From Gemmatimonadaceae bacterium (lineage in GTDB: Bacteria; Gemmatimonadota; Gemmatimonadetes; Gemmatimonadales; Gemmatimonadaceae): a stretch of 46,031 nt of DNA. The stretch is from positions 1 through 46,031 of the forward strand of contig JALOPN010000003.1 of assembly GCA_025453875.1 (NCBI GenBank), given 5' to 3'. Of the stretch, positions 3,249 to 23,383 are shown in pieces. The notes beneath the pieces are model-generated. The model was not told the DNA's origin and did no database searches. It saw nothing but the letters and a program-made list of their open reading frames with translations. The number at the start of each line of letters is the position of its first letter. Position 1 is the stretch's first letter. The position numbers and the translations under genes are program-made.

Positions 3249-3276
3249 AACGCCGATAATACATGTTATGTAAACT
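3249..3276 (+). other. dif: Candidate chromosomal dif site (XerC/XerD recombination site)
   Basis: AACGCCGATAA|TACATG|TTATGTAAACT: 11-6-11 architecture with ATAA-N6-TTAT core. Compared with remembered references: XerD arm 11/11 and ~22/28 overall to B. subtilis dif (ACTTCCTATAATATATATTATGTAAACT). Lies at the convergent gene-strand switch in non-coding DNA. Confidence 0.88.
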
Positions 3277-3282
3277 AAAGCC

Positions 3283-3301
3283 GGTGGATAACTGTGGACA
3301 A
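3283..3301 (-). promoter_or_regulatory. Two DnaA-box-like 9-mers in tandem next to dif
   Basis: GGTGGATAA (3283-3291) and TGTGGACAA (3293-3301); reverse complements TTATCCACC and TTGTCCACA are each one mismatch from TTATCCACA, same orientation, 1-bp spacer. Confidence 0.4.
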
Positions 3302-3642
3302 GTTCTCCACGTCGCACCCCTTGCACTTTGCAGGAGTAGCCTCAAGCTCTTTCATGCCTTGGGCTTATGGCGCTCTGCTCACGTTGTTTCTGGAGCCCGC
3401 GGCTCACGAGGATTTACCGAAGGCATCTCTCCACATTCCCACGCGAAGAAAACGCCTCAGGACTCACGTCTCGCTACGTGTGGATTTCTCGTAGCGCAAC
3501 GGTTCGTGATGCCGCCACAGAGATGCGAATAACGGTGCTCCGCAGGTCGCGCCGCGCTCAGTCGAGGACGGTCGCCCGGACGCGCTCGCGGCGCGTCGCA
3601 ACCCTTGCTGGCAGCGCCTGATGCTGGCCGCCGAGGACCCGC

Positions 3643-4539
3643 TCAGCGGTCCAGGACCAGGCGCCCGATCTGCCCCACGAACACCACACGTCCCTCGCCA
3701 GACAGCGATGGGCGCACTGCTCCGGTCAGGTCCGCCGGCGCACCGTCGGCCGGTGCAAGGCGAACGTGCACCGGCCGACCCGATCGAGTTTCGAGGGTGG
3801 CCATGCCCGGCGCCAGCCCCCATCGCGTAAGCAGAATCGCACACGCGATCGCGCCCGTGCCGCAGGCCAACGTCTCGCCCTCGACGCCTCGCTCGAACGT
3901 GCGGTAGGCCCAGCCGCCCCGACCGTCCGGCGCCACCCAGTTCACATTGGCGCCCGCTGGCGCGAGAGAGGCGTGCTGCCGTATTGGCGGTCCGTCAACC
4001 GCGACCGCAACCGCGTCGAGCGCCGCGCGGTCTGGCAGCAACAACACGACGTGCGGGACACCCACGAGCGCGAACCCGCTGCGTATCGCCTCCGCTGCGA
4101 CCGCCCCCAACGAGCCCCGCAGATCGTCGCGCACCTCTCGCACCGGCGCCACATCGATCTCGGGATGCGCCAGCTCGCGACGCGCCGTCACCAGTCCTGC
4201 GTCAGTGTTCAGCCGGACCGCGGTCGGCGCGGCGAGGCCGAGCTGGACGCTCAAGGCCGTGCTGCAAAGCGTCGCATTGCCGCACAGCTCGCCAAGGCTG
4301 CCATCCCGATTGAAGTACCGGAGTCGGATCGGGTCGGTCGAGTCACCCGGCGGTGGTGGTTCAAGTATCACGACACCGTCGGCGCCTATCCCGTTGTTCC
4401 GGTTGCAGATAGACGCAATGACCTCAGGTCGCGTGACAAGATCGGTCGGCGACGTGCGCGCGTCGAAAATGACGAAGTCGTTCCCCGACCCCGTCATCTT
4501 CGTGAACGGCACCCCCTCGAGCGGCGACAGGTCGAGCAC
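3643..4539 (-). CDS. dapF: Diaminopimelate epimerase
   Basis: VPFTKMTGSGNDFVIFDAR, ELCGNATLCSTAL, GVPHVVLL, FERGVEGETLACGTGAIACAI. Start uncertain (GTG near 4539 assumed). Confidence 0.9.
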   Translation of the reverse strand: MLDLSPLEGVPFTKMTGSGNDFVIFDARTSPTDLVTRPEVIASICNRNNGIGADGVVILEPPPPGDSTDPIRLRYFNRDGSLGELCGNATLCSTALSVQLGLAAPTAVRLNTDAGLVTARRELAHPEIDVAPVREVRDDLRGSLGAVAAEAIRSGFALVGVPHVVLLLPDRAALDAVAVAVDGPPIRQHASLAPAGANVNWVAPDGRGGWAYRTFERGVEGETLACGTGAIACAILLTRWGLAPGMATLETRSGRPVHVRLAPADGAPADLTGAVRPSLSGEGRVVFVGQIGRLVLDR

Positions 4540-4541
4540 GT

Positions 4542-5312
4542 TCAATACCGACCCGTCAGGCCCCACCAGCGCAGCCGCCACACCATCCACACGGCCTCTC
4601 GCACGATGCGCTTCGACATCTTCGATTCGCCCTCCGTGCGATCATTGAACACGATCGGGATCTCGGCGATGCGGAAACCGCGCTTCCACGCGCGGTAGCT
4701 CATCTCGATCTGGAACGCGTAGCCGTTCGACCGTACGGCATCGAGCGGGATGGCCTCGAGCACACGGCGCCTGAAGCACTTGAAGCCGCCGGTCGCGTCG
4801 CCGAGATGCATGCCGGTCACGATGCGGGCGTAGATGTTCGCGCCGTACGACAGCAGGAGCCGGGTCATCGGCCAGTTCACGACGGTCACCCTGCCCTGTC
4901 GATACCGCGACCCGAGCACGAGATCGGCGTCGCGCACCGCGCCCAGGAACTCCGGAAGGTGGGACGGGTCGTGCGAGAAGTCGGCGTCCATCTCGAAGAT
5001 GTACGCATAGTCGTGGCCAAGGGCCCACTTGAAGCCGGCCAGATAGGCGCGACCGAGCCCTTCCTTGCCCGCGCGATGCAGCACGTGCACGCGCGGGTCG
5101 GCCGCGGCGAGCTCGTCGGCCAGGCGGCCCGTGCCATCGGGCGAGTTGTCGTCCACCACGAGCACTTCAAGCCGCGGGTCCTGCGCGAGGATGCGCGGCA
5201 CGATGCGCGTGATGTTGTCCTTCTCGTTGTACGTCGGCACGATCACGAGCGCGCGTTCGCCATCGGGCACGGCGCCCTGCGGCGACCAGGGAGTGGTCCG
5301 GGCGTCAGACAC
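4542..5312 (-). CDS. Polyprenol-phosphate mannose synthase-like GT2 glycosyltransferase
   Basis: ALVIVPTYNEKDNITRIVPRIL, VLVVDDNSPDGTG, EMDADFSHDP, LVLGSRY; GTG start overlapping the upstream stop assumed. Confidence 0.88.
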   Translation of the reverse strand: MSDARTTPWSPQGAVPDGERALVIVPTYNEKDNITRIVPRILAQDPRLEVLVVDDNSPDGTGRLADELAAADPRVHVLHRAGKEGLGRAYLAGFKWALGHDYAYIFEMDADFSHDPSHLPEFLGAVRDADLVLGSRYRQGRVTVVNWPMTRLLLSYGANIYARIVTGMHLGDATGGFKCFRRRVLEAIPLDAVRSNGYAFQIEMSYRAWKRGFRIAEIPIVFNDRTEGESKMSKRIVREAVWMVWRLRWWGLTGRY

Positions 5313-22435: not shown

Positions 22436-23383
22436 TCAGGGGCGCGGATGGAAGGAACGGTGCACCGTGCGAAGATACTCACGGTCAACGTGCGTGTAGA
22501 GCTGCGTGGTCGCGATGTCGGCGTGCCCGAGCATCTCCTGCACGGCCCGCAGGTCGGCACCGCCCTCGAGCAGATGCGTCGCGAACGAGTGGCGCAGCGT
22601 GTGCGGCGAGACGGGCTTCTCGATGCCCGCCATGAGCACGTACTTGCGCAGGATCTTCCACGCGCCCATGCGCGTGAGCGGCTCGCCGCGCGCGTTGAGA
22701 AACAGGACGCCCTGCCCCGCGCCACGCTCGAGCACGGGGCGCAGCTCGCGCAGATACACCGCGAGAGCACCAATGGCCGAGCGGCCGATCGGCACGAGCC
22801 GCTCCTTGCTCCCCTTGCCGAGTACGCGCACGAGGCTCTCCTCGAGCAGGACGTCGCGCACGCTGATCGTGATCCACTCCGAGACGCGAAGCCCCGCGCC
22901 GTACGCCAGCTCGAGCATCGCGCGATCGCGAAAGGCCAACGGTTCCTCGAGTCCGGGCGCGCCCAGCAGACGCAGCACCTCATCGACCGTGAGCACCTCC
23001 GGCAGCGTGCGCCAGCGCGCCGGTGTTTCGAGCCGCTCCGTGGGATCGGTGGTGACGAGCCCCTCGCCCAGCAGGATGCGAAACCACGTGCGCAGCGCGC
23101 TGACGTTGCGGCGAATCGTGGCCCCCGACAGTCCGAGATCACGCAGCGTGTAGACGTACTCGCGCAGCACACGCGGCGTCAGCGCACCCGCCGTCGTCAC
23201 GCCCTGCGAACGCGCGTACGCGGCGCAGCGGATCACATCGCGGCGGTAGGCCTCGATCGTGCGCGGTGACGCGCCCTGCTCCAGCACGAGCACATCCTCG
23301 AAGCGCCGCAGAAAGAAGCCGCGGTCGAGCGCACGTTCGTCCAGCGCGTCGACCGACGTTGCCGGAGCCTCCGACGCGCTCAT
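22436..23383 (-). CDS. xerD: Site-specific tyrosine recombinase, XerC/XerD type (XerD-like C-terminus)
   Basis: [85 protein letters not shown]; complete R-K-H-R-H-Y set. Confidence 0.93.

Follow-up and report, generated by a model that had tools for sequence, protein, structure and literature searches.

A Gemmatimonadota dif site adjoined on its XerD side by a helically phased array of DnaA-box-like repeats

We analysed a 46,031-nucleotide stretch of DNA from a Gemmatimonadaceae bacterium (the window) and place the chromosomal dif site of this member of the Gemmatimonadota, with near certainty, at positions 3249–3276. Directly to its right lies an array of short DnaA-box-like repeats in constant helical register with the XerD-binding arm, and that this array is real and under selection we regard as practically assured. 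The dif site as such is an ordinary, expected feature of a known kind, since one was already predicted for the single Gemmatimonadetes genome then available (Kono et al. 2011, PMC3025954). The array beside it is the new part and is unreported before; a literature search of open-licence papers for DnaA boxes at dif found none. The first-pass annotation of this DNA had correctly read the 28 bp as dif, and it had taken them to be the whole element. In fact, on the XerD side conservation across the order continues for about another 25 bp, and the conserved array immediately right of the 28-mer (3283–3301) had been missed.

The dif site and its setting

The 28-mer, AACGCCGATAA-TACATG-TTATGTAAACT, lies on the + strand of the window, with exactly the layout and position first proposed for it. 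It consists of an 11-bp XerC-binding arm (AACGCCGATAA, 3249–3259, assigned from the layout), a 6-bp centre (TACATG, 3260–3265) and an 11-bp XerD-binding arm (TTATGTAAACT, 3266–3276), with an inner ATAA/TTAT palindrome. Its length, its 11+6+11 organization, its ATAA-N6-TTAT core and its terminus position are those of the dif/XerCD systems of E. coli and B. subtilis, and XerC, XerD and FtsK-gamma are likewise encoded, here in relatives. The XerD arm is identical to the E. coli arm at 9 of 11 positions and to the B. subtilis arm at all 11; the latter match reproduces the one originally claimed. The XerC arm agrees with either species at just 6 of 11 positions. Among 55 family members the ATAA of the XerC arm is invariant and its outer part variable; the XerD arm is near-invariant in family f1 and reads TTATGTTAAG[TC] in family f2. 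The centre is 6 bp long in all relatives compared, a length imposed by our search patterns.

Scanned at up to 3 mismatches, the window contains the 28-mer once, with 0 occurrences expected in shuffles. Our own genome is a 2.96-Mb MAG of 410 contigs, 64% complete, of which the window is contig 78. The genome-wide copy check proposed with the original reading gave a single copy there as the sole good match, the next two sites having 3 mismatches and no dif layout. The site is non-coding, as had been stated, and occupies the gap between an ORF ending at 2899 (+ strand) and dapF, the next gene to its right, which encodes diaminopimelate epimerase (3643–4590, − strand; TIGR00652, 154.7 bits, cut-off 114.65). 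An Rfam search of the window returned a tRNA as its sole match. The contrast between an AT-rich core and a GC-rich background also held up, the 28-mer having 32% GC against 52% in the 250 bp around it and 64–72% per kb across the window.

Comparison with the dif sites of related genomes, another of the checks suggested at the outset, recovered orthologous sites across the family and the phylum. Of 71 family genomes searched with a family-specific pattern, 55 yielded one dif each; a relaxed pattern, which matched the control hardly at all, located the site in 161 of 200 genomes of the phylum. One copy per chromosome is the rule; a few other fragmented drafts contain two, one of them usually at or near a contig end. 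dapF is the neighbour of dif in several lineages.

Terminus position was measured in complete relatives, our own genome being a fragmented MAG. The dnaA-to-dif distance amounts to 41.6%, 45% and 48% of the chromosome in three of them (G026, G051 and G020, respectively), which places the site opposite dnaA/oriC, where the first-pass annotation had expected it. The skew was taken from samples along the relatives' chromosomes, and in G026 the 20-kb sample that holds dif has a skew of +0.069 in its first half and −0.012 in its second, so that the skew changes sign there; we quote only this genome, the sampled skew of G020 being weak and noisy. Polar FtsK-orienting motifs converge on dif in the G026 samples. 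Forward and reverse copies of GGGNAGGG, a motif borrowed from E. coli to whose polarity GC skew contributes, stand at 12:4 in samples before dif and at 2:18 in the eight samples that span 1.94–3.88 Mb (counts read off a table). In the window alone, with 7 sites, this polarity is weak.

The tyrosine recombinase expected to act on dif, XerD, is encoded within the window itself (22436–23383, − strand; TIGR02225, 337.9 bits, cut-off 329.6). XerD was present in 15 of the 15 genomes checked and FtsK-gamma in 14, and a second Xer recombinase, of XerC type, is found in most relatives. A search of our draft MAG found XerD and did not find XerC or the FtsK gamma domain; both are present in same-genus genomes, and they are probably missing from the draft through its incompleteness. 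With XerC and XerD activated by FtsK, the site at 3249–3276 would serve to resolve chromosome dimers to monomers as the cell cycle ends. We also observed that xerD and dif form a conserved gene-site linkage at the terminus (3249–23383 in the window), the distance between them being 17–30 kb in 12 genomes of three families, our own included, and 55 kb in G229. Streptococci likewise have a recombinase gene linked to its dif; there, however, a single gene, xerS, lies immediately adjacent to difSL (PMC5357621), whereas here about 20 kb separate xerD from dif, and most relatives have the XerC-type enzyme besides.

A phased array right of the XerD arm

The array consists of 9-mers of the form TGTGGANAA, which read TTNTCCACA on the other strand and resemble DnaA boxes. 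In the window, box 1 (GGTGGATAA, 3283–3291, + strand) has one mismatch to TGTGGANAA and begins at offset 6 from the end of dif. Box 2 (TGTGGACAA, reverse complement TTGTCCACA; 3293–3301, + strand) begins at offset 16 and matches TGTGGANAA/TTNTCCACA exactly, as no other 9-mer on either strand of the 46 kb does. A possible third box, inverted and with one mismatch, follows at 3303–3311 (CGTGGAGAA, − strand); inverted copies are enriched 24–70 bp from dif, without a fixed place. An RNA hairpin of box and inverted box was rejected on inspection, the variable base of the copies being mismatched in the window and the loop lengths varying.

When the 55 family members are aligned on dif, two blocks of information stand out, dif itself and a block that starts 5–6 bp right of the XerD arm and is a direct repeat of TGTGGANAA. 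Conservation in this alignment stops about 25 bp from dif, and the left (XerC) side has none up to 400 bp. We counted copies with at most one mismatch at 92 loci, comprising the 55 family members, family f2 and further f1 loci. These copies fall at offsets 5 (23 copies), 6 (24), 15 (51), 16 (31), 25 (3) and 26 (1), over a background of about 0.01 copies per position from 60 bp outwards. Every one of the 133 copies in the first 49 bp is in phase 5/6 modulo 10, i.e., one helical turn apart, and 90 of the 92 loci have at least one in-phase box. The box-1 offsets (5/6) are filled at 47 of the 92 loci and the box-2 offsets (15/16) at 82, where 0.03 would be expected from the genomic background. One of the two boxless loci, L112, is unlikely to be the true dif of G056, the genome it comes from, which has a better copy, with a box, elsewhere.

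The exact dif-plus-box pattern occurs in 50 of 200 genomes of the phylum and in 0 of the control. Matches come from families f1, f2, f4 and f6 (the order and two further families), and among the same 200 genomes none come from f5, f7, f8, f9 or f10. Since f5, f7, f8 and f10 have dif and lack the array, the array is not essential for dif. A stricter pattern with TGTGGATAA, applied to 84,980 named species, matched 18 loci, 12 of them in Gemmatimonadota; the other six (Lachnotalea, Peregrinibacteria, Ignavibacteriales, Larsenimonas, Paenibacillaceae and Margulisiibacteriota) seem to be scattered occurrences, four of which nevertheless have real dif-like arms. At the dif of E. coli, by contrast, the surrounding 601 bp hold no TGTGGANAA box, and the main text of Kono et al. 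2011 (PMC3025954) makes no mention of DnaA or of flanking elements at dif.

Two viral contigs also contain dif-like sites followed by TGTGGATAA/TGTGGATA boxes (L193:7600–7790, with two such sites 106 bp apart, and L194:1684 on the − strand), which suggests elements using host Xer. A dif-like palindrome of Peregrinibacteria (L204, ~1800–1850) has TGTGGATAACC boxes on both sides.

Candidate binders of the array

In Gemmatimonadales dif is a compound site, in which one to three direct repeats of TGTGGANAA-N, one helical turn apart, follow the XerD arm, the first starting 5–6 bp and the second 15–16 bp beyond dif. Taken as a whole, the proposal of a compound dif with a phased array acting as operator for DnaA or a DnaA-like protein is one that we hold to be probable, with some reserve, from the sequence comparisons. 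For the narrower claim that the binder is DnaA itself, the balance tips only slightly in favour.

Several occurrences of the box bear on this choice. In the dnaA promoter of the family, the same 9-mer core overlaps the −35-like TTGAC, and the origin region at dnaA-dnaN in both G020 and G034 contains the 9-mer again; in relatives the dnaA-dnaN region contains TCCACA repeats, a DnaA-trio-like CTACTGCTACTAC and an AT-rich stretch and is likely oriC. On the G020 chromosome (5.3 Mb, 72–73% GC) there are 11 copies, three at dnaA/oriC, one at dif, three downstream of parB (a gene identified by eye from its protein sequence) and four elsewhere, and the cluster at dnaA/oriC favours DnaA as the binder. 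In relatives, domain IV of DnaA is canonical and includes GGRDHSTV; our own incomplete MAG yielded no full-length dnaA. In G139 (family f5) the 9-mer is doubled before a ribonucleotide reductase gene.

The boxes at dif fit TTNTCCACA, the core that the same family has at dnaA/oriC. Their third base, however, is mostly C/G (TTCTCCACA, TTGTCCACA), not A/T as at the dnaA promoter, and we therefore file them as DnaA-box-like and not as DnaA boxes. The DnaA boxes of E. coli oriC are separated by 2-bp gaps, and the 10-bp period of the array is tighter. DnaA-box clusters outside oriC, such as datA, DARS1/2 and DnaA-regulated promoters, share the match to TTNTCCACA; what differs here is that the boxes keep a fixed distance from a recombinase arm and follow the helical turn. 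We rejected a KOPS-like nature of the box, which occurs in 19–67 copies per genome and lacks strong strand polarity.

Further occurrences of the box lie away from dif. In genus g1 and in G026, the region that separates fpg (formamidopyrimidine-DNA glycosylase) from a divergently oriented gene for a putative methyltransferase holds a 10-bp doublet of TGTGGANAA-like boxes (L224:2020–2050, L225, L226, L228, L229). Directly downstream of parB in G020 and G034, TTNTCCACA-like boxes form a group of three, and a distance of 10 bp separates two of these (L221:1935–2026, L227:2000–2095).

We also noted a protein of 717 aa that has two AAA+ domains of DnaA type but lacks DnaA domain IV (L046:97–2250, − strand, G000:C155). 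Similar tandem-AAA+ proteins are present in most box-bearing genomes checked and absent from most boxless ones. The association with the box has a Fisher p of 0.0002 on hand-tallied counts, and we treat it as only a lead because the genomes are not independent.

Rival readings and a possible role

Given the C/G third base at dif and the 10-bp doublet before fpg, a regulator other than DnaA is possible, and the array could then be the operator of a lineage-specific XerCD accessory factor, much as PepA/ArgR or ArcA play the accessory part at plasmid cer and psi. A fixed helical phase with the XerD arm is what such a factor would need, the doublets at fpg and near parB show the same period, base 3 at dif departs from the dnaA-promoter box, and other families of the phylum do without the array, though DnaA is present in all. 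The 9-mer is nevertheless the DnaA-box core, concentrated at dnaA/oriC in G020, and no candidate protein was found. The resemblance to cer (ColE1) and psi (pSC101), which also join a recombination site to accessory protein sites, is likewise partial. The accessory DNA of cer adjoins the XerC arm; here the array adjoins the XerD arm, and the site is chromosomal. At cer, moreover, PepA and ArgR bind about 180 bp of accessory DNA (PMC5357621), whereas here conservation ends after about 25 bp, which consist of short direct repeats. On balance we regard an accessory factor of this kind as somewhat doubtful.

The remaining readings are less probable still. DnaA-box-like sequence at the terminus is also what would be seen if the boxes were a DnaA titration or inactivation site, similar to datA or DARS, that came to lie at the last-replicated locus beside dif by chance. 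We think this improbable: one to three boxes are few for that purpose, and titration needs no fixed spacing, which at 90 of 92 loci is kept to 1 bp modulo the helical turn. An ordinary dif whose flank is merely inherited with its neighbourhood, for example the dapF 3' region, and has no function would fit with dapF being the neighbour in several lineages. It is very hard to reconcile with flanking sequences that differ widely, with bases between XerD arm and boxes that vary freely (information near 0) beside conserved boxes, or with a phase that survives the skipping of the middle box, the next one still falling in register (offsets 6 and 25). As for the possibility that the sequence belongs to oriC and is not dif at all, an AT-rich core followed by DnaA-box-like repeats might invite it; we give it almost no credence, the oriC-like features of relatives (TCCACA repeats, the CTACTGCTACTAC trio and the AT-rich stretch) lying between dnaA and dnaN, with the site 42–48% of the chromosome away at the switch of skew from + to −.

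Returning to the reading that we prefer, DnaA or a DnaA-like protein bound to the array would sit on one helical face beside XerD and could touch XerD or bend the DNA towards it, so that the recombination site would sense the replication initiator. It is the constant helical register with the XerD arm that leads us to prefer contact with XerD, or a set DNA bend, over simple titration of DnaA. That the bound protein gates Xer recombination is a tentative suggestion drawn from this geometry. The specific version, in which DnaA in helical register beside XerD gates dimer resolution, possibly with the tandem-AAA+ DnaA-like protein as partner, is similarly speculative.

The usual picture of chromosomal dif is of 28 bp that suffice on their own and are controlled by FtsK. 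Were a phased operator to extend dif throughout an order-level lineage, control would gain a second layer there. Should DnaA prove to be the binder, one protein and one short DNA stretch would link initiation with the end of the cell cycle, and DnaA gating of dimer resolution, if true, would tie the control of initiation directly, at the molecular level, to the last segregation step. For genome annotation, dif plus array provides a sharp signature by which dif can be marked in drafts and MAGs of Gemmatimonadota, in which position is unusable.
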